NCBI RefSeq assembly: GCF_039904985.1
Contig: NZ_CP157006.1
Location: 62,001 to 126,000, forward strand
From: Methylomonas sp. AM2-LC
Lineage (GTDB): Bacteria; Pseudomonadota; Gammaproteobacteria; Methylococcales; Methylomonadaceae
DNA length: 64,000 nt
Reading direction: 5' to 3'
Part shown: one piece after another, positions 12,910 through 41,867 of the stretch
Numbering within the stretch: the stretch's first letter is position 1
How the letters are laid out: each line of letters begins with the position of its first letter
Program-made: the position numbers and the translations under genes
The notes under the pieces: generated by a model
What the model was told of the DNA's origin: nothing
Database searches by the model: none
The model's input: only the letters and a program-made list of their open reading frames with translations

Positions 12910-13061
12910 AGTTTTACTCCTAGGAAATGTCCCAAAAACCGAGACTTCCTAGATAACCCTGTCATGGACGGGAATATCAAGGAAGTCCCGGTTGACAGGA
13001 TGAAAAACACCCGAAGAAAAACAAATCCCATTGGGAGATTTGTTTTCTCCCAGGTGGGTTA
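12910..13061 (-). promoter_or_regulatory. Switch leader of gene at 12909
   Basis: Minus-strand hairpin CCCA..TGGGAGA/TCTCCCA..TGGG. Decoy arm AAAACAAAT matches switch arm ATTTGTTTT over 9 bp. This longest version adds a stem CCTGTCA/TGACAGG. CTAGGAA pairs with TTTCCTAG, which abuts the SD AGGAG. Confidence 0.6.
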
Positions 13062-13068
13062 AATTATA

Positions 13069-13530
13069 TTAATCAACAAGCAACATAAAGCCGGCAGATG
13101 CCATTACAGTTTTAACTGATTCATCAATAGTATTATGAGTAGTTGCGTAATACTGGAGTATTAAATCCAATACACGACCTGTAGCAGTAACGCCAAATAG
13201 CGACTTAGATAAAGTCTTAGCGCGTTGCAAAGATTTTTGGTCTTCAATTGTATCTGCTAAAAGCTGATCGAAAAAAGAAGCAGCAGCATGAAGATCATCA
13301 TGTGATACATCACTGTTTTCCAAAGCGCTACTTTGATAATAAAGTTCGGCTTCTTGAAGTGCAGCTTCTGGAGAATTCTCGGTATTAACAACAAGACCAA
13401 CGGCACCAAAAAGTTGAATTGCTTGCCAGTTATTGTCAGCAGTTTTTCGAATAATGTACTTACCAAATTCTCCCGTCGCATCGCATTGCAATTGATTATT
13501 AGGATTAAGATAAGGTGCGGAAATTTGCAT
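13069..13530 (-). CDS. Uncharacterised 153-residue protein
   Basis: Not recognised. Soluble, with a beta-rich N-terminal third (YIIRKTADNNWQAIQLFGAVGLVVN) and a helical remainder. Its start, MQISAPYLNP, follows a GAGGA SD that its leader can hide. A single-gene unit in the minus-strand array, between two switch leaders. Confidence 0.6.
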   Translation of the reverse strand: MQISAPYLNPNNQLQCDATGEFGKYIIRKTADNNWQAIQLFGAVGLVVNTENSPEAALQEAELYYQSSALENSDVSHDDLHAAASFFDQLLADTIEDQKSLQRAKTLSKSLFGVTATGRVLDLILQYYATTHNTIDESVKTVMASAGFMLLVD

Positions 13531-13600
13531 TGGTATTCCTCATAGAAATAACCAGGAAACGCAAATCACCATGAATGGGAATAAGTATTTCCCAGTCGGA
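13531..13600 (-). promoter_or_regulatory. Switch leader of gene at 13530
   Basis: GGGAA/TTCCC hairpin. Decoy GAAATA pairs with TATTTC of the switch arm GGTTATTTC, which alternatively pairs with SD arm GAGGAATACC. Confidence 0.55.
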
Positions 13601-13620
13601 TTAGAAATTAAATAGATTAA

Positions 13621-15228
13621 TTATTTAACAGCAAGTTGTTCAATGACTTCTGATACATTGCCTTGATTGCCAATCTTTATAACAAATGACTTTCCAAAAA
13701 CAGATGGGCATCCAGAAAAAGATGGCATCAGTGCTTTCAATGCGTCCTGTGGATTATCAAATTTGTTAGCAGCAACAAATTGTCTAAAAGACTCGCAATC
13801 GTCATTGTAAGAAGACTCTTGGAATGTATAATTTGTCATATATGTCGAAAACTGACTTATTACTTGGCCAGATTTTTCACGGTTTGGAATAATGAATTCT
13901 GATCCTGTATACATGGCATTATCGTGAAATGTCGCAACATCACCAAGAATGGTAATTGAATATGAGTCGCAAAATCTGACTCTTTCAGATGCGTAATTGC
14001 CGTTGAAATAAACAGTGCTTTTTAAACCTTGAATTTCAATATCAGGCGATAAAGAGTCAAGATCAATTAGAAACTGATTGATCCAATGTTTCTTGCTAAC
14101 TTTGTTTTTATTGCAGCATAGGTATTCTTTGTTGAACAAAAACATTTTGAAAGCGTTTGAACCCTCGTCATGAAAATATTCGTCGAACGAAAAAATTTTT
14201 CTGCCAGACAAAAATTCTTCTTTGGAAATATGTGACCCAGGACATGATTCATATTGACCAAAATTATCAGGCTCAGAATTCGGATAATCATCATAAATTG
14301 TGACAGCCTGTTTAGGCAGCCATTCATAATCATCCAAAACCTCTAGAATATTCCAGCGGGACATAATCTCGTAGTAACTGAGAAACTGTTCCATAGGTAG
14401 CGAGAGCTTTTCTAGGTTGAGCGTGGTTAAGAATTGTTTCTTAACTGCAGCCATTACCTGTTCGATAACCTCTTTCTCATCAATCAATTTATCACGATCT
14501 GGAAGACGCGCAAAAAACATTGATGAATCAAGATGAATAATATTACCTTCATTCGAGTTTCTTGATTTATAAATAGGCAAGCCTTGTAAATAAAAAACAA
14601 AATTACGACAATAATAAGCGCTGTCCCCTTTATTTAAGCCATACAAGCAGATGCTTCCGATTTCCGTTTTAACAAAGTCACGAAGAGAATCAATTGCATG
14701 AGGCCTTAAAAGTTCGTTTCCATTTAACAATACCGGAATTGAAAAACCAATAGACAATCGTTCTAATTCCTTTTCTGAAAAATCAACACCAATCATTAGA
14801 ATAGATGTAATACCATCCCAATCATCAATAGGGTAAACGGTGACAGGTTGAAAATTGAGAACCTTATCCGTATCAACAGAAAAACGTCCGCCTTTACTAA
14901 CTAATGTCATATTTTTGCAAGCAAAAAGCGCAGACAGAAATCCAATACCAAATGGATGTTCGTTAGCAATCACATCTGCTTCCCAGCCAGATTCAGCAAC
15001 TGTGAGCAATGTTTCAATTGAATCGATACCACAGCCGTCATCAGTTACTTTAAGAATTTTGGTATCTGGAAAATAATTGAAAGAGACGTACGTTGATCCA
15101 GCACGACGTGAGTTCTGCATGATTTCACCGATAAAAGTATATTTATTGGTGAAGGATAACTTCAATGATTTAACCAGATTTGTTTGGTTAACTTTCATTG
15201 AAACTTGTTTAACATTAGCGGTAGTCAT
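13621..15228 (-). CDS. GHKL (Hsp90-like) ATPase-domain protein
   Basis: 535 residues with a GHKL ATP-binding domain at the N-terminus. Visible motifs are the N-box EIMQNSRRAGS (about 35-45), DDGCGIDS (about 68-75) and the lid HPFGIGFLSALF (about 94-105). The long C-terminal part is not recognised. The lack of kinase or gyrase domains argues for an Hsp90/Morc-like or phage-type ATPase. Its SD (GGAG) can pair with the leader over ten positions. The role in the element is unknown; chaperone, remodeller or defence component are all open. Confidence 0.75.
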   Translation of the reverse strand: MTTANVKQVSMKVNQTNLVKSLKLSFTNKYTFIGEIMQNSRRAGSTYVSFNYFPDTKILKVTDDGCGIDSIETLLTVAESGWEADVIANEHPFGIGFLSALFACKNMTLVSKGGRFSVDTDKVLNFQPVTVYPIDDWDGITSILMIGVDFSEKELERLSIGFSIPVLLNGNELLRPHAIDSLRDFVKTEIGSICLYGLNKGDSAYYCRNFVFYLQGLPIYKSRNSNEGNIIHLDSSMFFARLPDRDKLIDEKEVIEQVMAAVKKQFLTTLNLEKLSLPMEQFLSYYEIMSRWNILEVLDDYEWLPKQAVTIYDDYPNSEPDNFGQYESCPGSHISKEEFLSGRKIFSFDEYFHDEGSNAFKMFLFNKEYLCCNKNKVSKKHWINQFLIDLDSLSPDIEIQGLKSTVYFNGNYASERVRFCDSYSITILGDVATFHDNAMYTGSEFIIPNREKSGQVISQFSTYMTNYTFQESSYNDDCESFRQFVAANKFDNPQDALKALMPSFSGCPSVFGKSFVIKIGNQGNVSEVIEQLAVK

Positions 15229-15303
15229 ATTTTGTCTCCAACATAGTTTAAAAATACCGGAAACAAAACAATCCCAAAGGGAAAGATAATGTTCCCAGTG
15301 GGT
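15229..15303 (-). promoter_or_regulatory. Switch leader of GHKL gene
   Basis: CCCA..GGGAA/TTTCCC..TGGG hairpin. Switch arm TTTTGTTTCC pairs with SD arm GGAGACAAAA over 10 bp with one G-U. Decoy GGAACA pairs with TGTTTCC with one bulge. Confidence 0.65.
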
Positions 15304-16079: not shown

Positions 16080-16082
16080 CAT

Positions 16083-16350
16083 GGTGTACTCCTTGAAAAG
16101 TCAAGAGATACACCAATCCCACAGGGAATGATGTATTCCCTTGTGGGTTAATTGGCCGGTGGCCTAGAAAAGTAGTCGCATCAAAGATGCATTCATAAAA
16201 TTATTCGTTCTTTTAAGTGCTGAACTGGCACTGATTTTGAGCTCTCATAGAACTACAAAAAATTCCGTCTTTCCGGAGCACACTCTATCAAATGCGCTTT
16301 GGGAAGACGGTAGATGCAATTATGCATGATTACCGTCTGGGTGTTAAGTT
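16083..16350 (-). promoter_or_regulatory. Repeated attenuator-promoter-leader block, copy 1
   Basis: Reading the minus strand: antiterminator hairpin AGACGGTA/TACCGTCT (16338-16305), then a competing terminator stem CCGTCTT/AAGACGG (about 16310-16264) with six T. Next a conserved core with GAGCTC, AGTGC-CAGTTCA-GCACT and AAAAGAACGAATAATTTT. GGCC/GGCC follows, then the switch leader (16145-16083): decoy GAATACATC, switch GGTGTATCTCTTGA, SD arm TCAAGGAGTACACC. It terminates read-through from 16432-17004 and probably starts a new transcript. Confidence 0.75.
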
Positions 16351-16431: not shown

Positions 16432-17004
16432 TTAAGCTACTAAATCATAATAATTTAAACGATGCTGCCGGAGATCTTCCTGAACAAGCTTTAGATGGTT
16501 CTTTAAGTCGAGCTTTTGGGCCAATGTTAGCGTTGGGTTCTTTAAATTTTTTGAAATTTGCTTGATTTTTGATTGAAGCAATTTCTCCTTTTCGTTCCAT
16601 TTTCCTTCATTTGGACTTAGAGCTTTAGGTCGTAGAGCGAAACACTGGATGCAATGGTTTTCAAACAAAGAAGTAACCTTTGCAGAGCATGTAATGCATT
16701 CGTAGTAAGGTTTATCTTTAGTAAAATCGAGATAGTCCCAATGGAATTGAACGGAAAGTGAATTTGCCAATTCGCGAAGTTCTGATAATTTATCAAACGG
16801 AGCATCAGCGCAAACAATACATGTGTGATCATGCTCTCTGACATAGATAGAAAAAAACTCTGGCTTTACATCATCGATAAAGCAAGATTTTCCATCATCT
16901 ACAAATTTAACGCCATGCACTTCAAGAGCAATATAGATAGCACTATTTGCTTCGACAGAATCTGTATAGCGCTTAAGATTTTTAGGAAGTTGGTTTTTTA
17001 ACAT
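16432..17004 (-). CDS. Zinc-finger-like uncharacterised protein
   Basis: 190 residues from ATG at 17004. The middle has a CxxC..CxxC zinc-ribbon-like motif (CITCSAKVTSLFENHCIQC, about 115-133). The C-terminus is a charged coiled-coil segment (KEKLLQSKIKQISKNLKN). Not recognised. Preceded by a switch leader and followed by block copy 1. Confidence 0.6.
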   Translation of the reverse strand: MLKNQLPKNLKRYTDSVEANSAIYIALEVHGVKFVDDGKSCFIDDVKPEFFSIYVREHDHTCIVCADAPFDKLSELRELANSLSVQFHWDYLDFTKDKPYYECITCSAKVTSLFENHCIQCFALRPKALSPNEGKWNEKEKLLQSKIKQISKNLKNPTLTLAQKLDLKNHLKLVQEDLRQHRLNYYDLVA

Positions 17005-17073
17005 AGGTATTCTCAAAAAATGGGAATACTACTTTCCTTGTAAAAGGAAAAGTAAAGTATTCCCTATACAAGG
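17005..17073 (-). promoter_or_regulatory. Switch leader of gene at 17004
   Basis: The clearest bistable case. GGGAATACTTTACTTTTCC pairs with GGAAAGTAGTATTCCC, and the same GTATTC of the switch arm can instead pair with GAATAC of the SD arm GAGAATACC. Confidence 0.65.
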
Positions 17074-17116: not shown

Positions 17117-18310
17117 TTAATTATTAATCGATACCCAGATAGATGAAATAATATCTTCAGATTGATTAATGCAGTTGGCATCATCAAAAACTTGATGGAC
17201 TTTACGACATTTTTCAACAAGACATTTCATTAGTTCAGATGACTTATCAAGCAACGACTCATATTTATCAGCACGATTTTTAACACGTTGTAATTCGGCT
17301 TCCATCAATTGTAAACGCTCAGTTCCCTCAATTAATGAAGGATTATCAACTAAATTCAACAATGCTTTCGAGTTAATTTCAAGCAACACATCAAGACTTT
17401 CGGCATGAGATTTAAGTTTAAAGTATTCTGCTTCAATGCTCTGTAAACGCGCAATTTCCTCAATTAATGCAGGAAAAATGTTGTGAATTTTAGCTGAAAA
17501 CGCAAGATTTTCGACGCAATTTTCTTCGGAGATGCCTTCATTTACAGAAGCTACCCCTTCAAGAATAATTGGGCAATACTCATTTACGGTGCTTACAAGA
17601 GAGTACGGCGCATCTTGTAATGCCCATTGACCTTTTGTTGTAAATTCGTAAACTTTTTTAATGTCTTCTAATTCAGTAAGTACATTGTTAGAAGAGCATT
17701 TTTTACAAACAAATCCAGACTTGTAGTCTGTACATGAATTACAGACCCAGGAACCACACTTGATACAGGAATTGCCTTCAGGACTTGTTTCTAAGCCGGC
17801 GAAGTTGCCGCAATGATCACAAGTTTCATTAGGGACATCATCGCGATCATGAAAAGCAGTATCGACTACAGGCTTATAACCAATAAAAAACACACCCGAG
17901 TCAATTAGTTTGCTGGTTTCAAAGTAGTCAAACTCAAATTCTGGCAGATTGATATTGGTCATGTAAAGAGTAACAATCCCATTGTCATCAGTCACTGCTT
18001 TACCTTGTCTATACCGTCCGTTATTTAGACAATAAAAAGGTTTATAAGCATTAGTACCTGAATATGATTGGTATGTACTTTTGTACTCGCCTTTAATAAT
18101 AAAATGAGTCACAGTGAATGGATCTACTTCTGGTATGTCGCCATCTACGGATAGATTTATAGCGGATAGCCAAGCCAGTAACGCAGCTTTTGTTCTAAAG
18201 GCAGTATGCGCAGCTCCTTTATCTGTAACAATATACCAATATCCGCACGTTCTTAGGTGAACGATTTTGTTGATAGATGTTAAGACAAGGTTATTGTGAA
18301 TTTGAATCAT
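17117..18310 (-). CDS. Zinc-binding protein with coiled-coil tail
   Basis: 397 residues. N-terminal half unknown (includes GYWYIVTDKGAAHTAFRTKAA). Central cysteine cluster CDHCG, CIKCG, CNSC, CKKC (about 180-225) suggests two zinc ribbons. The C-terminal part holds AKIHNIFPALIEEIARLQSIEAE, shared with the proteins at 21184 and 26937, followed by coiled coil. The shared module resembles the phage Ead/Ea22-type pattern. Under block copy 2. Function unknown. Confidence 0.65.
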   Translation of the reverse strand: MIQIHNNLVLTSINKIVHLRTCGYWYIVTDKGAAHTAFRTKAALLAWLSAINLSVDGDIPEVDPFTVTHFIIKGEYKSTYQSYSGTNAYKPFYCLNNGRYRQGKAVTDDNGIVTLYMTNINLPEFEFDYFETSKLIDSGVFFIGYKPVVDTAFHDRDDVPNETCDHCGNFAGLETSPEGNSCIKCGSWVCNSCTDYKSGFVCKKCSSNNVLTELEDIKKVYEFTTKGQWALQDAPYSLVSTVNEYCPIILEGVASVNEGISEENCVENLAFSAKIHNIFPALIEEIARLQSIEAEYFKLKSHAESLDVLLEINSKALLNLVDNPSLIEGTERLQLMEAELQRVKNRADKYESLLDKSSELMKCLVEKCRKVHQVFDDANCINQSEDIISSIWVSINN

Positions 18311-18575
18311 GTGTACTCCTTAAAATACAAGAGATACACCAATCCCACAGGGAATGATGTATTCCCTTGTGGGTTAAATGGCCGGTGGCCTAGAAAAGTA
18401 GTCGCATCAAAGATGCATTCATAAAATTATTCGTTCTTTTAAGTGCTGAACTGGCACTGCTTCTGAGTTCTCGTAGAGAACAACAAAAATCCGTCTTTCC
18501 GGAGCACACTCTATCAAATGCGCTTTGGGAAGACGGTATAGGCATTATGCCTAATTACCGTCTAAATGTTAAGTC
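18311..18575 (-). promoter_or_regulatory. Repeated attenuator-promoter-leader block, copy 2
   Basis: Same order of parts as copy 1. The antiterminator stem is AGACGGTA/TACCGTCT with inner AGGCA/TGCCT instead of ATGCA/TGCAT, a compensatory change that supports the RNA structure. Terminator CCGTCTT/AAGACGG plus T-tract retained. Leader arms as in copy 1. Confidence 0.75.
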
Positions 18576-18615: not shown

Positions 18616-19251
18616 TTAATCTGGCAGATTTTGTTTTTGCTGCCGGAATTCACGCATATCGTCATTATCGACGCGGTCATAAATTTCTTCAACCGCTAAC
18701 GATAGGCCAATAGACTCAAAGGTGACTGTGTCGCCCAAATAAAAATACTCGGACAGCCAGTTGTTGGTTTTACGTAGCACATGAACACAAACTGAGTCTT
18801 GCTCAATCAACACATATTCTTGTAAAGATTCCATGTTGATATAACGCATGAGTTTTATGGTTGTGTCATTCTTACGCGTGGATTTAGACAAAACCTCAAT
18901 AATTAATATCGGAGACGTAGTAAATTGACCGATGCGTTCCAAAGAAGCGCAATCCACCATGACATCTGGATAGAAGTAGTCATTACCTGAGCGGACTTTC
19001 ATATCAGCCATGTATGTTTCGCAAGGCATGCCTTTAAGATGACGCTGAAATTCACTCGAAATATTGACAGAAATTCTATTGTGATTAGGTCCCGCTCCTG
19101 CCATGGCATAAACACGACCGTCGATATACTCCCGCTTAACATGCGATAAAACTTCAGATTGAAGATATTCTTCATCAGTCATTGTTTTGGGGTGTTCATC
19201 AGCTAACATATCAACCTTATGCCTAATACAGCGTACATTAAATACGTTCAT
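18616..19251 (-). CDS. Uma2-family endonuclease-fold protein
   Basis: 211 residues of the Uma2 (DUF820) PD-(D/E)XK nuclease-like family. YPDVMVDC gives the active-site Asp and ILIIEVLSKSTRKND the E-x-[hydrophobic]-S-x-S-T pattern. MTDEEYLQSEVL...YIDGRVYAMAGA is the usual N-terminal pattern. Start ATG 19251 fits the AGAGG SD. Family members are abundant and rarely characterised, so the substrate is unknown. Unusually for the array it is a widespread chromosomal family. Confidence 0.85.
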   Translation of the reverse strand: MNVFNVRCIRHKVDMLADEHPKTMTDEEYLQSEVLSHVKREYIDGRVYAMAGAGPNHNRISVNISSEFQRHLKGMPCETYMADMKVRSGNDYFYPDVMVDCASLERIGQFTTSPILIIEVLSKSTRKNDTTIKLMRYINMESLQEYVLIEQDSVCVHVLRKTNNWLSEYFYLGDTVTFESIGLSLAVEEIYDRVDNDDMREFRQQKQNLPD

Positions 19252-19326
19252 TGTAACCTCTGGAAAATATAAAAGAAAACAGAGGGGAGACAAGTCCCAC
19301 AAGTGGGGAATTGATCCCCTGTGGGT
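19252..19326 (-). promoter_or_regulatory. Switch leader of Uma2 gene
   Basis: CCCACA.GGGGA/TCCCC..TGTGGG hairpin. Decoy GGGGA pairs with TCTCCCC. CCTCTG pairs with CAGAGG of the SD arm. Confidence 0.6.
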
Positions 19327-19896: not shown

Positions 19897-20319
19897 TTAA
19901 GAAAGTGATATGTCAATCAATTTAAGTAAATCATCACATCCACTATGATTTTCCCAAGCTTTAGGCAAAGCATTACGTGCTTCTATTAAAAGCGCCTTAA
20001 GTTGGGATCTTGATGTTTTTATTGATGCCAGAGCATTGTCGATTTCAACAATTAAACTTCTGTCAACACCGTTAGCTTCAGCAAAACTTTGATCTGGCAA
20101 AGCGGCTCTGGATTGCTCAAGTGCTTCAATAAATGACCATTTACCACGAACATACTTATCAAAGGCCATGGATTCAATTTTTGAATACATAACATCTTCA
20201 TTCGAATGTTTTTTATCAGCATGAGTGCTCAAATAAAGAACAAGAGCACCACTAGCATTGGTATAGCGTTTTCTTGCCAATGCCATAATTTTCAAATAGC
20301 GGTTTCTGTTAATACTCAT
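19897..20319 (-). CDS. Uncharacterised 140-residue protein
   Basis: Not recognised. Start chosen at the ATG after GAGGCAATT (MSINRNRYLKIMALARKR). Helical, basic at the N-terminus. First gene of a two- or three-gene unit under its own switch leader. Confidence 0.55.
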   Translation of the reverse strand: MSINRNRYLKIMALARKRYTNASGALVLYLSTHADKKHSNEDVMYSKIESMAFDKYVRGKWSFIEALEQSRAALPDQSFAEANGVDRSLIVEIDNALASIKTSRSQLKALLIEARNALPKAWENHSGCDDLLKLIDISLS

Positions 20320-20396
20320 AATTGCCTCGATCAGAAAATCTGAATAAAAGAGGAGCAAACAGAACCATAGGGAACTGAATTGCTCCCATGTGGGTT
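20320..20396 (-). promoter_or_regulatory. Switch leader of gene at 20319
   Basis: Decoy GGGAGCAA pairs with TTTGCTCC. The TTGC core of the switch arm also faces GCAA of the SD arm GAGGCAAT. Confidence 0.5.
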
Positions 20397-21183: not shown

Positions 21184-21594
21184 TTAGACTCCGTAATCGC
21201 TAGGGTTGAGAAGATCTTCCTTGGTCAATAAAGCTGAATTAGCATCAATAATTAACTGACTAGCCTCTTTGCAAATAAAGAAATCACCCTCATTATCCTC
21301 ATTAATTACAGAAAGCAAAGACTGAAGAGCGGACTCAACTTTTTCAAGACGATCCAATCGGTCTTTAATTTCCGGAAACAAGTTATGAGCCGTGCGGGCA
21401 AATCTTAAATTAGCAATGGCTTTGGCTTCCGGAACAGAATCAAATGATTGAAAAAGATCAAACAGGTGAGGACCGTCAATGGATACGATAGTGAAATGAG
21501 TTGAAAAGGCCCAGTTTTTCATTGATTCCATGTAAGAACTATAAAGTTCCTGCATCGCTTCAGTGAATTGTGGGTTAGTAATATTTGGTAACAT
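21184..21594 (-). CDS. Small protein with shared HN-x-FP module
   Basis: 136 residues from the ATG at 21594 (MLPNITNPQFTEAMQELY). Residues around 70-90 read FARTAHNLFPEIKDRLDRLEKVE, the same module as in the 17117 and 26937 proteins. Helical throughout. First gene of a pair with the kinase-like gene. Confidence 0.55.
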   Translation of the reverse strand: MLPNITNPQFTEAMQELYSSYMESMKNWAFSTHFTIVSIDGPHLFDLFQSFDSVPEAKAIANLRFARTAHNLFPEIKDRLDRLEKVESALQSLLSVINEDNEGDFFICKEASQLIIDANSALLTKEDLLNPSDYGV

Positions 21595-21668
21595 GTGTTT
21601 TCTCCTTAATAAACAAAAAAGGGAACACAAAAAACCCAAAGATGAGAAATGTAGTGTTCCCAGTGGGT
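21595..21668 (-). promoter_or_regulatory. Switch leader of gene at 21594
   Basis: Decoy GGGAACAC and switch GTGTTCCC pair perfectly over 8 bp. GTGTT also pairs with AACAC of the SD arm AAGGAGAAAACAC. Confidence 0.65.
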
Positions 21669-21670: not shown

Positions 21671-22066
21671 TTAAAATAAGAACGGAGTCTTAATTTGTTG
21701 CTTAGACAGTGCTTCAAATACAGATAAATCTGGATTCGAAAGCTGTTCGAAAGAAACGATCTCAAACTTGAACAGATAAGCCATGATTGATTCTAGCGAT
21801 ATGTAAAAGTTTTTACTCGCCTTAGCAACAGGATTGCCGTACTCGTTTCTTTCAACCCAAACTACAATGCCGTTAGGGACAAAACGTAAACCATTTACGA
21901 AATACGAACCTGGATATCTCAGGCTGGTTCGTATGGAAATTGGATTTTCGGAAGAAGATCTGTTTTTCTTGCCATGTATCTGGTCTGAAAAACTTCCTGA
22001 TGCGAAATCGGATACACTGAGTAATTTGCCTTTTTTAAAGGCAGAAAAAGCAGTACTTTGTGACAT
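21671..22066 (-). CDS. Uncharacterised 131-residue protein
   Basis: Not recognised. Starts MSQSTAFSAFKKGKLLSVSD. The middle, PGSYFVNGLRFVPNGIVVWVERNEYG, looks like a beta domain. Single-gene unit with its own switch leader. Confidence 0.55.
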   Translation of the reverse strand: MSQSTAFSAFKKGKLLSVSDFASGSFSDQIHGKKNRSSSENPISIRTSLRYPGSYFVNGLRFVPNGIVVWVERNEYGNPVAKASKNFYISLESIMAYLFKFEIVSFEQLSNPDLSVFEALSKQQIKTPFLF

Positions 22067-22131
22067 GGTGTTTACTCCTTAAAAAACAGGAACACCAAAA
22101 GCCCAAATGGGAAATGATGTTCCCAATGGGT
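22067..22131 (-). promoter_or_regulatory. Switch leader of gene at 22066
   Basis: Decoy GGAACATC pairs with GGTGTTCC (8 bp, one G-U). GGTGTT also pairs with AACACC before the ATG. Confidence 0.65.
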
Positions 22132-22478: not shown

Positions 22479-22761
22479 TAATATCCCCAGAAGACAAGTT
22501 ATGTAAATTTTCAGACATATAACGAACCTGAAGGGCGTCAAGTGCGGGACCAATAATTTCATCCCATAATCCGTCTTGATTTTCAAGTAACCACTGAAAC
22601 ATTACTCGTGGATTATCAGGAAATTTTCGCTCATTAATCAGAACATCAGAAACATGTCCCATTAATGCATTGCCTTCACGACTAAAGGTGTCGACAAGTT
22701 CTTCAGTTGAAACAGTATTACTCGTAAGATTATCGAGGGTATCTATGATTTCATGTGTCAT
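22471..22761 (-). CDS. Uncharacterised 96-residue protein
   Basis: Not recognised; acidic and helical (MTHEIIDTLDNLTSNTVSTE). First gene of a coupled pair with the gene at 22149, behind a switch leader. Confidence 0.55.
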   Translation of the reverse strand: MTHEIIDTLDNLTSNTVSTEELVDTFSREGNALMGHVSDVLINERKFPDNPRVMFQWLLENQDGLWDEIIGPALDALQVRYMSENLHNLSSGDINA

Positions 22762-32343: not shown

Positions 32344-32407
32344 GATTAATCTCAAAAAAAGAGGCAAACACATGCACCAAAAAAGTGAAATGTTCACCTT
32401 AAGGGTT
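32344..32407 (-). promoter_or_regulatory. Switch leader of gene at 32343
   Basis: GTGAA/TTCAC hairpin. Decoy GGTGAACAT pairs with ATGTGTTTGCC with mismatches. Weaker than most. Confidence 0.45.
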
Positions 32408-32415: not shown

Positions 32416-32730
32416 TTACAAGGTAGCGACAGCGACTTGATACATTTCATCAAAGAAATTGCGTTCTTCAAATTCAGCAACTTTTTGATACCCGAACGGA
32501 GTCGGAGCCACCAAATAAAATAGCCCATCTTGCTCTTGAAATGTCCAGGGGCCAGGCGTATTGGCCTTGGTTAAAGAAACGTCGTCATGGTTCAAAATGC
32601 CAAGCATAAAATTGCCGTTGTTCTTGGCAGCATCAGCTTTTCTAATTCTAGACCAAACGTTACTGAAGATGTTGGCAACAACATTGCCGTTATCATTAAC
32701 TAATTGGGTGTTATCAATTATATCGTACAT
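32416..32730 (-). CDS. Uncharacterised 104-residue protein
   Basis: Not recognised. ATG 32730 (MYDIIDNTQLVNDNGNVVAN) after GAGGAATTTT. Contains GPWTFQEQDGLFYLVAPTPF, like a segment of the 26937 protein. A strong hairpin (about 32797-32838, GCGAG..CTCGC) separates it from the upstream DUF3150 gene. Confidence 0.55.
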   Translation of the reverse strand: MYDIIDNTQLVNDNGNVVANIFSNVWSRIRKADAAKNNGNFMLGILNHDDVSLTKANTPGPWTFQEQDGLFYLVAPTPFGYQKVAEFEERNFFDEMYQVAVATL

Positions 32731-32795
32731 AAAATTCCTCAAAATTAATAAGAGAAATTCAAAACCCCTAAGGAAATTGAATTTCCCAAGTGGGT
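32731..32795 (-). promoter_or_regulatory. Switch leader of gene at 32730
   Basis: Decoy GAAATTCAA and switch TTGAATTTC are perfectly complementary. AATTTCTC also pairs with SD arm GAGGAATT (8 bp, one G-U). Confidence 0.7.
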
Positions 32796-32851: not shown

Positions 32852-34051
32852 TTAGAACCAGGAACTATCGTTAGATAGTTCAAAAAGTTCAACGGGCATA
32901 GGAACAATTATTTCAGAGACAGGTACTTCATCCGCAGCGGAAACAGTAGGATTAATAACGACTGGAGCCGGTACAAAAAGATCAGATTCCAATGTTTCTA
33001 CAGCAGCAGTGTTAATAACGACTGGAGCAGCTTCTTCAGTAAAACCAGACATGTATTCCTCATATCCAATAGTTTCATCATATTCCAAAAGTTCATCTGT
33101 GGATTGAGTATCAACGGGTGACGGCGCAGAGGTAACAACGATCGATTGAGATTCATCTTCAATTTCTTCATCCGTATCCGTAAATGATCCAGACAAATGT
33201 CCTTCACCATAACGTTTGACTTTATCGGCATCTGACAATAAATGGGCCAGATTACATAAAGTTTGATATGCAATACCATTGTAAGGCGGGCTAGAAGGTA
33301 ACGCATCAAGTACTGCGTCGATTCTATTAACCACAGGCATAACTCTGTGATCAAGAAATCCGAGACTATCCAGCTTGTCACGCATTTTGCGAAATGCGTT
33401 CAATGTTCTTGCAGTGACATACTCTCTCTTGTCATAGAAAGAGTTTTCCAGAACCCGAGAAGCTTCCACAGATATTTCATGGAATAATTGCTCAGACAAT
33501 GAAATTGTCCGTCTAACTAATGATTGATCAACAATAACATTCGCTGGATCGTTATTAGGTACTGAACTTGGCATCGATACACGATAAACCACATAATCAA
33601 AGCGAAGTTTTGCTTTAACTGATGAAGCGGGCTCAACAGCATTTCGAATTGCGATTGCAAACTCAGGATGCTTTTTTACCCAATCATCAATATACGAATC
33701 ATAATTCGCAATAAATTCATCACGAGCAACAGCAAAATCTTTTGCAAGATCATCAAGTTTTTTGGTTATATCAGGAATTTGAACTATTGGATTAGCAAAA
33801 CCACCCAAAAACCTTGTGCCTGTTTCCAAACAAATGCTTTCTGCCTTTTTCTTAATAGTGGAAAAAATTTTCACTACCTCACGATCACAGGTACGTTTTG
33901 TACCTAAATAAGCCAATTCGTCAGGTGGTAACTTTGATCCATCTCCAAGCACAAGATCATTCTCTCTAAGTTTTTTTGCTCCTGTCCATAACACAATGTC
34001 AAGTTTAACGACATGGACTTGATTTAAAATAATTTCAGCTTCATGTGACAT
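32852..34051 (-). CDS. DUF3150-family protein
   Basis: 399 residues from ATG 34051 (MSHEAEIILNQVHVVKLDIV). The N-terminal VHVVKLDIVLWTGAKKLRENDL and GTKRTCDREVVKIFSTIKKKAESICLETGTRFLGGFA match the DUF3150 pattern found next to MoxR/CobS-like ATPases on phages and mobile elements. The C-terminal ~120 residues are acidic and low in complexity (TDEEIEDESQSIVV). Its position next to WGR and CobS-like genes supports a shared machine. Molecular role unknown. Confidence 0.75.
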   Translation of the reverse strand: MSHEAEIILNQVHVVKLDIVLWTGAKKLRENDLVLGDGSKLPPDELAYLGTKRTCDREVVKIFSTIKKKAESICLETGTRFLGGFANPIVQIPDITKKLDDLAKDFAVARDEFIANYDSYIDDWVKKHPEFAIAIRNAVEPASSVKAKLRFDYVVYRVSMPSSVPNNDPANVIVDQSLVRRTISLSEQLFHEISVEASRVLENSFYDKREYVTARTLNAFRKMRDKLDSLGFLDHRVMPVVNRIDAVLDALPSSPPYNGIAYQTLCNLAHLLSDADKVKRYGEGHLSGSFTDTDEEIEDESQSIVVTSAPSPVDTQSTDELLEYDETIGYEEYMSGFTEEAAPVVINTAAVETLESDLFVPAPVVINPTVSAADEVPVSEIIVPMPVELFELSNDSSWF

Positions 34052-34120
34052 AAACACCTCCAAAAGGAAAAAAATAGAGGCATAAAATCACCCCAGAGGC
34101 GAAATTGATGCCCCTATGGG
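34052..34120 (-). promoter_or_regulatory. Switch leader of DUF3150 gene
   Basis: Decoy GGGGCAT pairs with ATGCCTC (7 bp, one G-U). CCTC also pairs with GAGG of the SD. Confidence 0.55.
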
Positions 34121-34893: not shown

Positions 34894-35876
34894 GGTTTTT
34901 TAACTTCCCAATCGTCACCAAATACAAGTTTAGCTATCTTTTCAATAGCGGCTCGCTGTCCAGCGTCAACACGAAAAGACAAAGTACGCTCAAATGAATA
35001 TTTAATAACATTTTGACCGCCTTTAAAAGCAATCATCAGGCTGATCCAACGCAAAAGAGTCCTAGTTGACATCGTCACAGAGAGAGTCCCTGTGCTATCT
35101 GAGTTACCAGAAAACTGTTTACGAATGTTATTAGCTACTTCAATCATCTTATCAGTGATTTGTTTTTGAGGAGCATCAAAGACAGTACCGATTGATGCAT
35201 AGTACGACTTGACAATAGCTTCCTCTTCTTCAACAGTTGGATATTCAATTTCGCAAAGACGAAATCTATCCATAAAAGCTATGTTTTGCTGCAATACACC
35301 TTGGTAAAGACCTGATTGATCTCCTTGTCCAGCGGAGTTACCTGTAGCAACCAATCTGAAAAATGGATGAGGCATAATAACTTCCCCAGAATTTTGAGGT
35401 ATCACCAAAGGTTGCCCTTCAATAATATCGTTTAATCCGGACAGTTCAGATGGGTCAATAAGATCAATTTCGTTTAAAACCAAAATATGGCCATCGCGAA
35501 CAGCTTGTGCCAAAGGACCGTGCATAAATTGCATAGATCCATTAGATAACATGAATTGACCAATCAAATCATTTATCTCCATGCGACCATGACAAGTAAC
35601 CTGATGAACGGGCCAATTGAGTCGGGCAGCGACTTGAGATATCAAAGACGTTTTTCCAGAACCTGTCGGTCCTTTCAAATACAGTCCGTCGCCAAGTGGA
35701 TTATTCAGAAACGCATTGACATCACGCAAAGATTCTCTACGGAATCTATACTCTTTTTTACGAGGAATTAATGGATGATTATTATCCTCAAAACCTACGA
35801 CCTGAACGGTAAGAGGAACCCCAGTAAAACCAAAAGTTGGGCCAATAGGGAATTTTTTAGGTATTAAATTAGACAT
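34890..35876 (-). CDS. CobS/MoxR-like AAA+ ATPase
   Basis: 328-residue AAA+ protein. Walker A is LKGPTGSGKTSLISQ (about 65-80), Walker B HILVLNEIDLIDPSE (about 130-145), sensor RLVATGNSAGQ, with an arginine-finger region MDRFRLCEIEYP. This is the CobS/MoxR layout seen in SXT-type ICEs and phages, working with a VWA partner. The CobT-like gene at 27816 is that candidate. Heads a unit with the WGR gene under block copy 5. Confidence 0.85.
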   Translation of the reverse strand: MSNLIPKKFPIGPTFGFTGVPLTVQVVGFEDNNHPLIPRKKEYRFRRESLRDVNAFLNNPLGDGLYLKGPTGSGKTSLISQVAARLNWPVHQVTCHGRMEINDLIGQFMLSNGSMQFMHGPLAQAVRDGHILVLNEIDLIDPSELSGLNDIIEGQPLVIPQNSGEVIMPHPFFRLVATGNSAGQGDQSGLYQGVLQQNIAFMDRFRLCEIEYPTVEEEEAIVKSYYASIGTVFDAPQKQITDKMIEVANNIRKQFSGNSDSTGTLSVTMSTRTLLRWISLMIAFKGGQNVIKYSFERTLSFRVDAGQRAAIEKIAKLVFGDDWEVKKP

Positions 35877-36140
35877 AGTGTACTCCTTGAAAAATCAAGA
35901 GATACACCAATCCCTCGGGGAATGATGTATTCCCTTGAGGGTTAAATGGCCTGGGCCTAGAAAAATGATAGCGTAAAACGCATTAAAAATTATTCGTTCT
36001 TTTAAGTGCTGAACTGGCACTGCTTCTGAGTTCTCGTAGAGAACAACAAAAATCCGTCTTTCCAGAGCACACTCAGTGAATGCGCTTTGGGAAGACGGTA
36101 GGTGTAATAATACACACTATCCGTCTAAATGTTAAGTTTG
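35877..36140 (-). promoter_or_regulatory. Repeated attenuator-promoter-leader block, copy 5
   Basis: Same parts. The antiterminator inner stem is GTGT/ACAC, a third version that keeps pairing. Terminator CCGTCTT/AAGACGG plus T-tract. Core GCACTTAAAAGAACGAATAA retained. GGCC palindrome GGCCCAGGCC. Leader hairpin CCC-TCAA-GGGAAT as in copy 3. Confidence 0.75.
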
Positions 36141-37451: not shown

Positions 37452-37706
37452 TTACTCATCTAACAAAGAAATTAGACGATAAATTGAATCATTTTGAACG
37501 GATATACGATTAAGAACGGTATCCCCTGTATTGGCGTCCAAAATTAAAGCTATTTTATAGCGAGAACCTTGATATTCAATTCCGCCATCATCAGATTTAA
37601 GTTGTATCACAATATCGGTTTTCCCAATTCTGTCAGAAAACAGACTTGGAGTTCTTTGGACACGGTAAGGGTCGTCAAAAACAATTTTTAGATTTAAAAA
37701 GGACAT
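37452..37706 (-). CDS. Uncharacterised 84-residue protein
   Basis: Not recognised. Starts MSFLNLKIVFDDPYRVQRTP; beta-rich. Single-gene unit with its own leader and terminator-like hairpin. Confidence 0.5.
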   Translation of the reverse strand: MSFLNLKIVFDDPYRVQRTPSLFSDRIGKTDIVIQLKSDDGGIEYQGSRYKIALILDANTGDTVLNRISVQNDSIYRLISLLDE

Positions 37707-37768
37707 AGAATTTCTCCTGAAAATGGAAAATTCTTACCCACAAAGGAAAAGAATTTTCCCGGTGGGTT
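37707..37768 (-). promoter_or_regulatory. Switch leader of gene at 37706
   Basis: Decoy GGAAAATTCTT and switch AAGAATTTTCC are perfectly complementary over 11 bp. AGAATTT also pairs with AAATTCT next to the ATG. Confidence 0.7.
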
Positions 37769-37781: not shown

Positions 37782-38159
37782 CTAATCGGTTTTAGAATCG
37801 TTATTGGGAAATAGACTACCAGCTAAAAGGACCGCTAAATCCAGTTCACCTTCCGCTAATGCTTTGCAAGCATCAAACGCTGTTTTTCGACGACTAATTT
37901 CAATCGCTGAAGGTTCAGGATCAGGAAACGACTCTACAAGATGAGCAGAAAATCTCAACTTTGATTTATCTGTTTTCTCGTAATCATCAAACAACAAAGG
38001 CATTTCTGGCGTATTGCCCCGAAGAGTACCCTCTTCAAAGGCTTTTAGCGCCAATTCAATTGCTAGGCCTCCATTTGGGGCAGAAATACCAACCATTACT
38101 CGGTGCTTGCAATCCAACTTGCATTCAATGGCATAGTTATTTAAGACGGGGTTACTCAT
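37782..38159 (-). CDS. Uncharacterised 125-residue protein
   Basis: Not recognised. Starts MSNPVLNNYAIECKLDCKHR; a small alpha/beta region then a helical C-terminus. Single-gene unit. Confidence 0.5.
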   Translation of the reverse strand: MSNPVLNNYAIECKLDCKHRVMVGISAPNGGLAIELALKAFEEGTLRGNTPEMPLLFDDYEKTDKSKLRFSAHLVESFPDPEPSAIEISRRKTAFDACKALAEGELDLAVLLAGSLFPNNDSKTD

Positions 38160-38240
38160 GGTGGTGCTCTCCTAAAAAATTAAAGGGGAAACACCACACA
38201 CGAAAATTTCGGGTGTAAATATTTCCCCGAATATCGGATT
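38160..38240 (-). promoter_or_regulatory. Switch leader of gene at 38159
   Basis: Decoy GGGGAAA...CACC pairs with GGTGTTTCCCC (11 bp around a bulge). GGTG also pairs with CACC of the SD arm GGAGAGCACC. Confidence 0.65.
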
Positions 38241-38252
38241 TAATGTTAAAAG

Positions 38253-38627
38253 TTAATGAACAATTTTTATAATCGAAAGTGTACGTTCTCGAACTTCTTC
38301 AAAATCATACTCTAATAATCCACAACAGTTTCTAAAGCTAAACGGATGTGTATCATCGTCTGAAATCAGCCAATTATAGGAAGATCGACGACTTTCAAGA
38401 CCGCAACGTGCATCATTAAGAGTACGCAAGGTATCCTGTAAAATAACTTCTGCAGCCGCGTAAATATCTTCATCCGTCCATTCGTCTTCTTCGTTATTAC
38501 AAATGCCAGAAAGAAGATTCTTATCGAGATGTGAAAAATCATCGAAAACCCAGTCAAAATTCCGTGGGAAATCTTTACAACGAACAACAATGCGTACGCG
38601 ATTAATGCCAATAGTGTAAGAATTCAT
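38253..38627 (-). CDS. Uncharacterised 124-residue protein
   Basis: Not recognised. Starts MNSYTIGINRVRIVVRCKDF; acidic, helical remainder. Single-gene unit just downstream of the exonuclease gene. Confidence 0.5.
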   Translation of the reverse strand: MNSYTIGINRVRIVVRCKDFPRNFDWVFDDFSHLDKNLLSGICNNEEDEWTDEDIYAAAEVILQDTLRTLNDARCGLESRRSSYNWLISDDDTHPFSFRNCCGLLEYDFEEVRERTLSIIKIVH

Positions 38628-38695
38628 GCATCCTCCAAAAGAATAAAATATGGGGAATACAATAACCCGCAGGGTATGTATATTCCCCTAGGGTT
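38628..38695 (-). promoter_or_regulatory. Switch leader of gene at 38627
   Basis: AACCC/GGGTT outer stem. Decoy GGGGAATA pairs with TATTCCCC. GTATTC pairs with GGATGC before the ATG using two G-U. Confidence 0.6.
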
Positions 38696-39777: not shown

Positions 39778-40067
39778 GCTACATTCCGATCCTTATCTCC
39801 TGAATCAGAACGAAGATAATTACGATTGCCTGTCATGGATTTCCATAAGTTGCTCAAAAATTTATCACCATGCTTTCTGACACAGGCAGGTGAATCACTA
39901 AAACGTAGATTCACAAGAAAACCTGTACGAGAATTAGTGTGCGATGGATTTTCGGTCATGGATACACGAATGCTTTCTAAAAAAACCGCGCCATGTTTAC
40001 GTACGCATGCAGGAGTGTTTAATTCACTGTGGATTGTAGTTTGTAAATCACTTAATTTTCTTCTCAT
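39774..40067 (-). CDS. Protein with duplicated PACVRKHG motif
   Basis: 97 residues with two copies of a ~30-residue unit: TPACVRKHGAVFLESIRVSM and SPACVRKHGDKFLSNLWKSM. Basic, one Cys and one His per unit. Not recognised; a small nucleic-acid-binding or recombination accessory protein is a guess. Coupled to exo by a 4-bp overlap. Confidence 0.6.
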   Translation of the reverse strand: MRRKLSDLQTTIHSELNTPACVRKHGAVFLESIRVSMTENPSHTNSRTGFLVNLRFSDSPACVRKHGDKFLSNLWKSMTGNRNYLRSDSGDKDRNVA

Positions 40068-40134
40068 AACGTCCTCCTAAAATAAAAAAAGGGCGTAACA
40101 AGATCCCAAAGGGCATCAAGTACGCCCAAAGGGT
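40068..40134 (-). promoter_or_regulatory. Switch leader of 39774-40067/exo unit
   Basis: CCC/GGG outer stem. Decoy GGGCGTA pairs with TACGCCC. ACG also faces CGT of the SD arm AGGAGGACGT. Confidence 0.6.
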
Positions 40135-40135
40135 G

Positions 40136-41161
40136 TTAATTTAGACGTTTTCTCGCTTCATCTAAATTAGTTTTTCGAACAGAATCAGTACCTTTGTCCT
40201 TTTCGTCACCAGACGTTTGGTTTGATACTAGTGTTGATTGAGATTGAGATTGAGTTTGTGTTGCATTAGGAGCAATCAATTTTCCTTTTTCAAAATCATT
40301 TTTATTTTTGTTTAAAGCGTCGACCATAACATTTGCAAGCTCAGGATTGCGATTTGAGTTAATCCAGTCAATTGCACCTTGCCAAGAATTTTCGGTTATG
40401 CATCGTGTAGTTAATCTATCTAAAGTTTTGATATCTGTATTAGATAATTTAACAGGCTCTGAATTAATCACTTCCGCTTGAACATCGATAACAGAATTAT
40501 CATTATCTTCCAATATTCGAAGTGCCTCATCTTCATCATATAAACCCGCAAATCCAAAAGCATATCTAGCGCATTGGATCAGTGACTTATGACGCATTAT
40601 TCGCTTGGTATGAGTTTGCCATGGGCCATTTACTAGATAAGTCTGACCATTATTTTGATTTTTCTTTTCAAACGGTGCTCTATAAACCTCGTCCAAATAC
40701 TCTTTAATACGGACGGGGTGATTCCTATCCTTTCTATAAAGAATACATTCCATCCATTCCGGAGAAGTTTTTCCGTTATCTGGTGTTAGCCAATTATTTG
40801 AATTTTCAAAATTCATACCATCCATCATTGGATGCTGATTAATAATCCGCAACCAACCGTCGATTGACACAACGGGAACAATACCATTGTTCTTATCAGG
40901 ATAAGCAAAAATTTCCTTTGTAAATGGATTCAAACCATATTGGTCAGAAACAATGAGTAATGCTTGCATTTGCTCATCAGTCACCTCACCATCTTTGACT
41001 TTGAAAGCCGTGGATTTTAGAATTGAAAGCAATTTTTCTTCGCTTTCAATAGAAAATCGACTGCAAAACTTCGCAGCTAAAGTTTCTTTTAATTTTTCAG
41101 ACTTTTTACCCGCAGCAGTTTCTGATGAATCTGCAGAAGGTTTTGTGGTGTTGGTTGTCAT
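40136..41161 (-). CDS. bet: Bet/RecT-family annealing protein
   Basis: 341 residues. Red-beta/RecT core: QMQALLIVSDQYGLNPFTKE, then IVPVVSIDGWLRIINQHPMM, then MRHKSLIQCARYAFGFAGLYDEDEA. It anneals single strands during Red-type recombination with the exonuclease and Ssb. The C-terminus is low-complexity Gln/Ser/Thr. ATG 41161 has SD AAGGAG. Between ssb and exo, each with its own leader rather than one operon, which is unusual. Confidence 0.88.
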   Translation of the reverse strand: MTTNTTKPSADSSETAAGKKSEKLKETLAAKFCSRFSIESEEKLLSILKSTAFKVKDGEVTDEQMQALLIVSDQYGLNPFTKEIFAYPDKNNGIVPVVSIDGWLRIINQHPMMDGMNFENSNNWLTPDNGKTSPEWMECILYRKDRNHPVRIKEYLDEVYRAPFEKKNQNNGQTYLVNGPWQTHTKRIMRHKSLIQCARYAFGFAGLYDEDEALRILEDNDNSVIDVQAEVINSEPVKLSNTDIKTLDRLTTRCITENSWQGAIDWINSNRNPELANVMVDALNKNKNDFEKGKLIAPNATQTQSQSQSTLVSNQTSGDEKDKGTDSVRKTNLDEARKRLN

Positions 41162-41238
41162 AAATTTTCTCCTTGAAGAAATATAATCAAGGAACATCAT
41201 ATGCCACAAGGGACAAAATAATGCCCTTGAAAAGGTGG
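41162..41238 (-). promoter_or_regulatory. Switch leader of bet
   Basis: CCAC..GTGG outer stem. Decoy CAAGGGCAT pairs with ATGTTCCTTG with one bulge. CTTGA pairs with TCAAG of the SD arm. Confidence 0.6.
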
Positions 41239-41269
41239 ATTAAATTAAATATAGAAAACGTTATCCTGT

Positions 41270-41695
41270 TTAGAAATCTTCATCTGGATTGAAATCATCG
41301 TAACTTGATGTAGCAGTCGTAGATGAGTTTGAATTCGATGGATTTTCAGCAGGTGAACTGTTATCTCTTTTGTGGAGTCTAACAATTTCAGCATGAATTT
41401 CAGTAGTATATCGATCACCACCATCATTATGCGTCCATTTTCGTGTGCGGGAAGGACCTTCGCAAAGAACCAGTTGGCCCTTTTTGACATAATCACGAAC
41501 ATAGTCGGCCGTTTTCCCAAATACAACAACATTGTGCCATTCGGTACGTTCGGTCCACTCGCCTGTATGTTTATCTTTATAGTGGTCAGTAGTTGCAACA
41601 CTAAAATTTGCTACAGTCTTGCCACTAACAGGCAATACGCGAATATCAGGTTCTCTACCGATACGTCCAACAATTAGATGTTTGTTAAAGTACAT
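41270..41695 (-). CDS. ssb: Single-stranded DNA-binding protein
   Basis: 141 residues from ATG 41695 (MYFNKHLIVGRIGREPDIRV). OB-fold SSB with VANFSVATTDHYKD, TEWHNVVVFGKTADYVRDYV and KGQLVLCEGPSRTRKW, then a Ser/Thr-rich linker. The acidic tip is DDFNPDEDF, close to the usual D-D-x-P-F tail. It coats ssDNA in replication, transfer and Red recombination. First gene after block copy 6, so it probably begins the recombination transcript. Confidence 0.92.
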   Translation of the reverse strand: MYFNKHLIVGRIGREPDIRVLPVSGKTVANFSVATTDHYKDKHTGEWTERTEWHNVVVFGKTADYVRDYVKKGQLVLCEGPSRTRKWTHNDGGDRYTTEIHAEIVRLHKRDNSSPAENPSNSNSSTTATSSYDDFNPDEDF

Positions 41696-41764
41696 ATATC
41701 TCCAAACTAAAAGTAAAATCAGGAGATCATGATTTCCCAAGGGAAAAAGATCTCCCTTATGGGT
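41696..41764 (-). promoter_or_regulatory. Switch leader of ssb
   Basis: Decoy GGAGATC and SD arm GGAGAT are nearly identical, and the switch arm GATCTCC pairs with either. The simplest demonstration of the decoy principle. Confidence 0.7.
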
Positions 41765-41867
41765 AAAATGAAGCCTAAGCTTCGGTTAAATTGAATAATG
41801 TAGAAACTAAATTATTCAAATTCTAAGCGCAAAAAAGCATCAGAAAACTGAAACATTTTTGCAATAA

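Follow-up and report, generated by a model that had tools for sequence, protein, structure and literature searches.

Gene-specific leaders with two predicted alternative pairings precede most genes of a recombination block in a Methylomonas contig and in IncC, SXT/R391 and related elements

In erm/cat-type attenuators the leader RNA comprises four segments, of which 1 and 2 as well as 3 and 4 are paired at rest with the Shine-Dalgarno (SD) sequence lying in segment 4, and induction, by ribosomes stalling on a leader peptide, uses the pairing of 2 with 3. Translation is also set by alternative foldings in the hok mRNA and the MS2 maturation leader, both of which concern single genes and time-dependent folding. 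A translational attenuator of the gene bet in the integrative and conjugative element (ICE) SXT was reportedly described in 2013 by Garriss et al. According to the accessible part of a review, bet in SXT is repressed by one "strong translational attenuator" before the gene, which is reported to limit the translation of a highly transcribed gene and to occur also in IncA/C plasmids (PMC4542580). STAXI RNA, in the portion of its published description that was available (Weinberg et al., 2010; PMC2864571), is a pseudoknot present in two or three repeats; it occurs close to genes for DNA handling, ssb among them. Here, an array of structured leaders is described from Methylomonas sp. AM2-LC contig NZ_CP157006.1, of which a stretch of 64,000 nucleotides (nt), hereafter the window, was analyzed (positions 62,001–126,000 of 288,757 bases). 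The leaders lie on the minus strand between 12.9 and 41.7 kb of the window, within a tandem gene block that includes ssb, recT, a YqaJ exonuclease, an AAA ATPase, DUF3150, a VWA protein, Uma2, a HATPase-domain gene and numerous small genes.

Read 5′ to 3′, the leader plan consists of CCC, a spacer, GGG plus a "decoy", a loop, CCC, a spacer and GGG, which form a hairpin (P1), followed by a "switch" and then by the SD of the gene; by reading, there is a single P1 and a single switch per gene. We assign a probability of roughly 0.75 to the reading of each leader as a bistable translational attenuator that acts in cis and is OFF in its predicted resting state. Strand 1 (CCC, spacer, GGG and decoy) would pair with strand 2 to form P1, and strand 3 (the switch) would pair with strand 4 (the SD, sometimes up to the AUG), keeping translation off at rest. 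If P1 were kept from forming or were invaded, the switch would be captured by the decoy with its resemblance to the ribosome-binding site (RBS), strand 2 would form a CCCnnnGGG mini-hairpin of its own and the SD would be freed. The computations yielded pairings specific to each gene, covariation, conservation over a wide range of elements, a predicted OFF ground state and an SD-free alternative. Bistability is thus well supported as a design, and the decoy:switch alternative would presumably be used in cells. With GGAG in the SD, CUCC would be required in the switch, GGGG or GGAG in the decoy, CCCC in strand 2, and GGG and, at the 5′ end, CCC in the outer arms; these arms would be needed because strand 2 must close either P1 or its own mini-hairpin. 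The plan would thus recur because each segment is dictated by the SD under control, with the gene-specific part tracking its own RBS, and we infer that the shared plan follows from the SD alone and requires no common binding factor.

Like erm/cat-type attenuators, the leaders are predicted to have strands 1:2 and 3:4 paired with the SD in strand 4, but their alternative pairing is 1:3, and no leader peptide was obvious by eye, a systematic scan not having been made; upstream stop codons often abut P1. With hok and MS2 they share the choice between alternative foldings, although the direct-path barriers reported below speak against easy switching of the nascent RNA. The reported bet attenuator coincides in gene and position with one of the leaders: P1, switch and a predicted SD mask are present directly upstream of bet in a scaffold (L101) of ICEMprChn1, which the accessible part of PMC5122569 assigns to the SXT/R391 ICEs, and also in the IncC plasmid pSH111_166 (L051). 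The respective genes, at 4309 in the ICE and at 14388 in the IncC plasmid, belong to the RecT family (bet), and their leaders are predicted to mask the SD (SD-core pairing of 0.82 and 0.69, respectively); by analogy, the other leaders may act in the same way. In contrast to the single attenuator described before bet in the accessible part of the review (PMC4542580), the leaders found here are many, gene-specific, distributed over several element lineages and equipped with an explicit decoy:switch alternative. The statement in the preliminary description of this DNA that no such family had been described therefore needs to be narrowed: no description of an element-wide leader family was found among the full-text matches listed, most subscription journals lying outside the coverage, but for bet an attenuator had already been reported (PMC4542580, as far as accessible). 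In word searches, the main texts of PMC4207636 and PMC3915882 lacked translational, attenuator and leader, and PMC4344509 lacked translation, attenuat and leader. The earlier report on bet lowers the novelty, which remains high for the family, the gene-specific RBS mimicry and the spread. STAXI, which had been suggested as one of the obvious comparisons, shares with the leaders the proximity to ssb and DNA-handling genes and differs, by the accessible part of its published description (PMC2864571), in its repeated pseudoknot, as opposed to one P1 and one switch per gene. STAXI (RF01728) gave no gathering-score match in the window, L049–L051, L101, L118 and L213, and none at E ≤ 1 in L051; in the same loci no Rfam family matched the leaders.

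In the window, 33 minus-strand starts between 12.9 and 41.7 kb with enough space for a leader were picked by eye; no fewer than seven others were left out for overlapping or almost touching the preceding gene (e.g., ends 38716, 36222, 34132, 25338, 22149, 20409, and 19511). A P1 hairpin of the described plan could be marked by eye at 28 of the 33 starts, which bears out the earlier claim of one common architecture. For the pairing test, five near-identical leaders (family A; starts 35876, 30200, 23258, 18310, and 16082) were counted once, and the degenerate starts 37281, 31360, and 27731, the start 23889 (cut by an insertion sequence (IS)-like insertion) and the start 12909 (P1 present, but about 90 nt between switch and SD) were omitted, resulting in n = 24. 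The hairpin:switch pairing amounted to −14.84 kcal/mol within a gene versus −8.55 across genes (z = −11.3; 0 of 20,000 permutations; P1 marked by eye) and the switch:SD pairing to −10.52 versus −7.27 kcal/mol (z = −6.9; 0 of 20,000), whereas the control pairing of hairpin and SD differed little (−7.40 versus −6.66; z = −2.1; 432 of 20,000). The sequences thus diverge from gene to gene while the pairing is kept, as first proposed, and the examples given at that time (ssb, the 27816 gene, 32416, and 37452) hold as written. In several leaders the pairing includes the start codon, a switch CATGGTG being able to pair with CACCATG.

Since P1 had first been marked by eye, the test was repeated with P1 located by a blind rule that ignores both switch and SD. 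In the window this rule found P1 in 20 of 29 non-redundant starts, with z values of −9.8 for P1:switch, −6.7 for switch:RBS and −1.7 for the control. A detector applied to all SD-preceded open reading frame (ORF) starts at a threshold of ≤ −9 recovered 20 of 93 on the minus strand compared to 1 of 186 shuffles, and on the plus strand only the chance level (2 of 59 versus 1 of 118); the rest of the 289-kb contig was at chance as well (27 of 523 versus 25.6 expected; rows summed over L014–L026). These analyses confirm that the leader array in the window is real and strong. The leaders had been described as starting transcription units; they attach instead to genes, most of which are second or later in their unit. 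Those marked in the window are as follows, (−) denoting the minus strand.

41693–41763 (−): ssb leader (P1 at 41736–41763, then switch, RBS and start codon; Pfam SSB)
41159–41238 (−): leader of the recT/bet-like gene (P1 at 41204–41238; Pfam RecT)
40065–40133 (−): leader of the 39774–40067 gene, in the pairing test
38625–38693 (−): leader of the 38253–38627 gene; the unconstrained optimum contains the decoy:switch hairpin
38157–38231 (−): leader of the 37782–38159 gene; top detector score in the window, −13.8
37704–37766 (−): leader of the 37452–37706 gene, in the pairing test
35874–35941 (−): leader of the AAA (AAA_5/CbbQ_C) gene, family A copy (Pfam)
34049–34120 (−): leader of the DUF3150 gene, in the pairing test
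32728–32794 (−): leader of the 32416 gene, in the pairing test
32341–32405 (−): degenerate leader preceding a short ORF, weak switch:SD (−5.0)
31853–31915 (−): leader of the 31490 gene, in the pairing test
30198–30265 (−): leader of the 29676–30200 gene, family A copy
29604–29674 (−): leader of the VWA gene, basis of the ortholog analysis
26836–26907 (−): leader of the 26287 gene, in the pairing test
26201–26278 (−): leader of the 25883–26203 gene, in the pairing test
25251–25326 (−): leader of the gene interrupted by the IS-like insertion (25141–23982), weak switch:SD (−5.8)
23256–23323 (−): leader of the 22845–23258 gene, family A copy
22759–22827 (−): leader of the 22471–22761 gene, in the pairing test
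22064–22130 (−): leader of the 21671–22066 gene, in the pairing test
21592–21667 (−): leader of the 21184 gene, in the pairing test
20317–20394 (−): leader of the 19897 gene, in the pairing test
19249–19325 (−): leader of the Uma2-family gene, in the pairing test
18308–18373 (−): leader of the 17117–18310 gene, family A copy
17002–17073 (−): leader of the 16432 gene, in the pairing test
16080–16147 (−): family A leader; by reading, its ATG starts an ORF of only 8 codons
15519–15590 (−): leader of the 15330 gene, in the pairing test
15226–15302 (−): leader of the HATPase-domain gene (Pfam)
13528–13599 (−): leader of the 13069–13530 gene, in the pairing test
13027–13058 (−): P1 of the leader of the 12685–12909 gene; the switch follows, about 90 nt from the SD

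Leaders are also present at the matching block (ssb, bet/recT, exo, AAA, DUF3150, VWA) of IncC, Vibrio, SXT/R391, Pseudomonas, Rhodanobacter and Methylococcales elements. The VWA protein was matched in 45 of the 151 genomes searched, including the window's own, some of the matches being weak, and a leader was visible by eye upstream of VWA in 11 fetched relatives. The blind rule located P1 in 21 of 31 starts of the IncC plasmid (z = −8.8 for P1:switch and −7.7 for switch:RBS), 23 of 36 of a Vibrio alfacsensis plasmid (L049; −9.7 and −7.2), 15 of 28 of a Methylobacter plasmid (L050; −8.3 and −6.9) and 7 of 8 of the ICE (−3.5 and −4.3), whose eight starts, unlike the sets of the other four elements, had been preselected from detector hits. 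The control P1:RBS stayed between z = −1.1 and 0.6 in these four elements, and over all five elements the rule found P1 in 86 of 132 starts compared to 73 of 396 shuffles. The similarity between decoy and RBS was gene-specific in the IncC plasmid (z = 2.9), the Methylobacter plasmid (z = 4.6) and the window (z = 2.7). The blind rule replaced a cruder fixed-window test, because the latter mixes P1 with decoy:switch, a confounding seen in IncC and Vibrio; the fixed-window test yielded z values of −3.4/−2.3 for a Pseudomonas aeruginosa plasmid (L213, 11 starts) and −3.4/−3.9 for a Rhodanobacter plasmid (L215, 20 starts).

At the detector threshold of ≤ −9, 25 of 32 annotated starts of the IncC plasmid scored compared to 67 of 320 shuffles (two overlapping genes being unlisted), and 45 of 97 did so among all candidates on the strand including the tra genes (16.1 expected). 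From the annotated start lists a few overlapping genes had been dropped, as had the IncC start at 16650, a near-copy of that at 11815. A larger sample, numerous near-identical loci included, was drawn from the genome collection (the best 80 loci of 121) and covered Methylomonas, Methylobacter, Thiorhodococcus, Vibrio, Shewanella, Marinomonas, Alteromonas, Providencia, Edwardsiella, and others. On their forward strand 1,295 of 3,164 candidates reached −9 (611 expected) and 768 reached −11 (209 expected); the reverse strands gave 612 of 2,417 at −9, a count without shuffle control. The VWA start, located in 78 of these loci, reached −9 in 72 of the 80, compared to 93 of 390 shuffles of those starts. 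The detector has low power in GC-rich loci such as L039 and L088. Viral contigs with a VWA homolog showed little excess (735 of 3,699 versus 593.5 expected at −9; 342 versus 271 at −11). A second VWA relative lies in the window's own genome on contig C1 around 4720473 (L027/L028), and the minus strand of L028 has 9 leader-like starts where 2.7 are expected; therefore, a second element may be present.

Covariation was assessed in a sequence-only alignment of 29 VWA leaders, in which the structures were set from row L057, a choice that favours the unslid version, and some rows were misaligned by MAFFT. L075, L083, L118, and L122 had been dropped as leaderless or partial (two of them score 0), and removal of near-identical sequences (78 to 36) and of close relatives (36 to 29) gave the final set. 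For switch:SD, 65.5% of the cells were paired versus 56.2% in shuffles (0 of 500), with a score of 0.288 versus 0.188 (0 of 500) and 21 two-sided changes versus 12.8 (2 of 500). Decoy:switch reached 82.1% versus 76.6% (0 of 500) and a score of 0.250 versus 0.206 (10 of 500). Sliding the partners reduced percentage and score of both pairings. P1 did not covary beyond shuffles because its letters hardly vary: CCC/GGG are strongly conserved, spacers and loops variable. The covariation proposed earlier as a check was thus recovered in homologues for both switch:SD and decoy:switch, while some measures (see below) were no better than the control.

Folding of 22, 25, 19, and 8 leaders (window, IncC, Vibrio and ICE, respectively, chosen by detector or eye) predicted the SD core to be paired with mean probabilities of 0.84, 0.74, 0.90, and 0.90, compared to 0.78, 0.68, 0.68, and 0.70 in shuffles. 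The contrast is clearer for pairing of the SD by the switch region, which amounted to 0.71, 0.69, 0.87, and 0.90 versus 0.44, 0.31, 0.35, and 0.32. When the RBS was forced open, 83 of 86 chosen leaders adopted a long-range hairpin of the 5′ arm and the switch capped by the strand-2 mini-hairpin, and in all five sets this optimum was 7.7–9.1 kcal/mol deeper than in shuffles. Opening the RBS cost more than in shuffles in IncC (8.5 versus 5.7 kcal/mol), Vibrio (8.3 versus 4.8) and the ICE (10.7 versus 6.4). Among 124 starts taken without regard to the detector, OFF and ON shapes occurred together at 89, compared to 0 of 16 in a syntenic plasmid (L214), and in a barrier analysis 21 of 22 leaders of the window, 21 of 23 of IncC, 13 of 19 of Vibrio and 5 of 8 of the ICE had both states. 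The folding thus agrees with the two mutually exclusive pairings of the switch that had been proposed: the SD is masked in the predicted ground state and free in the decoy:switch alternative.

Several observations weigh against the bistable attenuator. The decoy-to-RBS similarity was not gene-specific in one of the four sets, the Vibrio plasmid (z = −0.7). In each block some starts are without a leader, and two syntenic plasmids, L214 (z = −1.7/−1.4) and L216 (−1.5/−1.5), lack leaders by the fixed-window test. In the VWA alignment, the pairs with a two-sided change did not exceed shuffles for switch:SD (6 versus 5.5; 273 of 500) or decoy:switch (4 versus 2.8; 118 of 500), and decoy:switch slid by −1 has more two-sided changes than in register (10 versus 8). 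The probability of a paired SD exceeds shuffles only modestly in the window and in IncC, and opening the RBS is as costly in the window as in shuffles (5.3 versus 5.5 kcal/mol) and only slightly costlier in the Methylobacter plasmid (6.7 versus 5.7). OFF and ON shapes are also found together in 24–30% of shuffles, which makes shape counts alone weak evidence. Finally, the nested direct-path barriers from P1 to the alternative have medians of 10–19 kcal/mol among the leaders with both states, with single values near zero; these are direct nested paths in nascent RNA in a model that leaves pseudoknotted loop:switch paths outside. Given such barriers, spontaneous switching may be slow and most leaders probably fold directly to OFF unless P1 is hindered, and a decoy acting as built-in timer on the nascent RNA was rejected since the direct-path barriers are mostly high. 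In place of the leaders, L214 and L216 have upstream of many of the same genes an AT-rich 5′ motif that recurs from gene to gene (like TTTAAATATATAAATTTAT before AGGT) and is perhaps another control element.

If the leaders served for plain masking of the SD, P1 and switch:SD would suffice and decoy:switch would be a by-product, for instance of an inverted duplication of a hairpin arm, and never the ON state. The predicted OFF ground state and the high nested barriers to the alternative would fit this, and we know of no inducer of the leaders; however, P1:switch is as gene-specific as switch:SD or more so in four of the five sets (the ICE being the exception), decoy:switch covaries across orthologs, and the forced-open optimum lies 7.7–9.1 kcal/mol below shuffles, and we regard plain masking as unlikely. 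A reading as transcription attenuators, with decoy:switch as intrinsic terminator (hairpin and U run) and P1 as antiterminator, is suggested by TTTT within 9 nt of the hairpin in 18 of 22 leaders of the AT-rich window, but TTTT occurs in only 2 of 23 leaders of IncC, 3 of 19 of Vibrio and 1 of 8 of the SXT/R391 ICE (8 of 14 in the Methylobacter plasmid), and the switch:SD covariation has no role in a terminator. This reading, very improbable in our estimation, was rejected because the U run is not conserved outside AT-rich elements. It is harder still to credit that the repeats act at the DNA level, as single-strand-folding recombination sites (attC-like) or protein operators: inverted repeats do recur before each gene of a tandem array, and near-identical leaders precede different genes, but the pairing follows each gene's own RBS, sometimes to the AUG, none of which a DNA site needs, and the recombination-site reading was rejected.

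Two further proposals concern the trigger. The preliminary description had suggested that one trans-acting factor, protein or RNA, binds the common P1 and sets the whole block, which is compatible with a bistable attenuator. The strong conservation of the P1 letters CCC/GGG without covariation would agree with such a factor, but SD mimicry alone may explain the conserved letters, the P1 spacers and loops are variable, and P1 covariation does not exceed shuffles. A search of the window's genome revealed no ProQ/FinO domain and, on the window's own element, no CsrA, ProQ or NusG paralog; the sole CsrA and one NusG-domain match are on the large contig C1, and action of the host CsrA is possible. 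No evidence for a common factor was thus obtained, and it remains a possible but doubtful trigger. Alternatively, ribosomes terminating on the upstream gene beside P1 could alter its folding and thereby couple translation, which again would not be exclusive of the attenuator. Of the 24 IncC leader genes that follow another gene, 16 begin 60–94 nt past its stop, barely over leader size, and stop codons frequently abut P1 by eye; on the other hand, first genes of units have no nearby upstream gene, the stop-to-P1 distance in the window varies by eye from about 2 to about 40 nt, and a ribosome covering strand 1 would favour OFF. Such coupling appears improbable as the trigger.

A second structured RNA lies upstream of the first leader in transcription units. 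It consists of a hairpin followed by a short stem that bears a loop of 7 nt. This loop reads UAGCUGG in IncC and Vibrio, UAGCUAG in the ICE of SXT/R391 type and CAGUUCA in the window, and its inner bases are able to pair with a downstream CAGC, UAGC or GAAC to give an H-type pseudoknot. In 15 distinct hand-chosen segments, 99.1% of the cells pair, with 22 two-sided changes versus 5.7 and a covariation score of 0.501 versus 0.144 (0 of 500 shuffles each); further pair types were not in excess (11 versus 9.4 in shuffles; 67 of 500). The window row is gapped at two of the four pseudoknot pairs, and GUUC:GAAC would need a shift of four columns. No Rfam match to the module was found. Elsewhere it occurs in IncC (8 places in 10663–34827), in Vibrio (9 places in 7748–31106) and upstream of 3468 in the ICE. 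The window has six such unit-start modules, of which five precede family A leaders and one lies upstream of ssb:

41892–41924 (−): copy 1 (core), upstream of ssb
35986–36018 (−): copy 2, before a family A leader
30315–30347 (−): copy 3, before a family A leader
23367–23399 (−): copy 4, before a family A leader
18423–18455 (−): copy 5, before a family A leader
16197–16229 (−): copy 6, before a family A leader

The modules at 16229, 18455, 23399, 30347, and 36018 (−) are preceded, at a distance of about 30–130 nt, by promoter-like letters. The same upstream regions contain a terminator-like hairpin (CCGTCTTCC..GGAAAGACGG and a T run after it); by eye, its left arm has another potential partner further upstream, and the hairpin is possibly a second switch. 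A link between module and leaders is hypothetical. A rather unlikely two-layer RNA regulon could be imagined in which a factor, brought by the pseudoknot to RNA polymerase or the nascent RNA, blocks P1 in all downstream leaders; the whole block would then turn ON in a single step, for instance in the course of conjugative transfer or shortly afterwards, and each gene would retain its own RBS since decoy and switch co-evolve with it.

The 288,757-base contig is one of three in the 5.39-Mb genome and probably a plasmid. Nine of 20 proteins in a Pfam scan had no match, and a Toprim gene adjoins the block on its downstream side (Pfam). The full family A leader at 16082 (−) precedes an ORF of 8 codons, and the gene behind it looks broken. 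The spacer of about 90 nt in the 12909–13058 (−) leader contains another large inverted repeat. Two ORFs at 23982–25141 (+), which resemble an IS3-type insertion, separate the leader at 25251 from the gene at 23889, whose own leader they seem to interrupt. Upstream of the ORF 8000–8377, a c-di-GMP-I-GGC riboswitch is found at 8460–8546 (−; Rfam 59.9 bits, cut-off 59).

As bistable attenuators, the leaders would jointly keep the whole block of recombination and accessory genes at low translation despite strong transcription, and transcript levels would mispredict protein levels across the block, ssb, bet, and exo among them. Although the IncC plasmids and the SXT/R391 ICEs, conjugative elements of one family, are medically important and have been the subject of intense study, this regulatory layer of some twenty or more switch leaders per element is reported at one gene only in the literature searched. 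If the reading is true, the leaders would also form a natural library of many independently diverged bistable RNA solutions, each fitted to its own RBS and useful for learning what makes bistable switches work. The leader array turns what switches the block on into a concrete, testable question.

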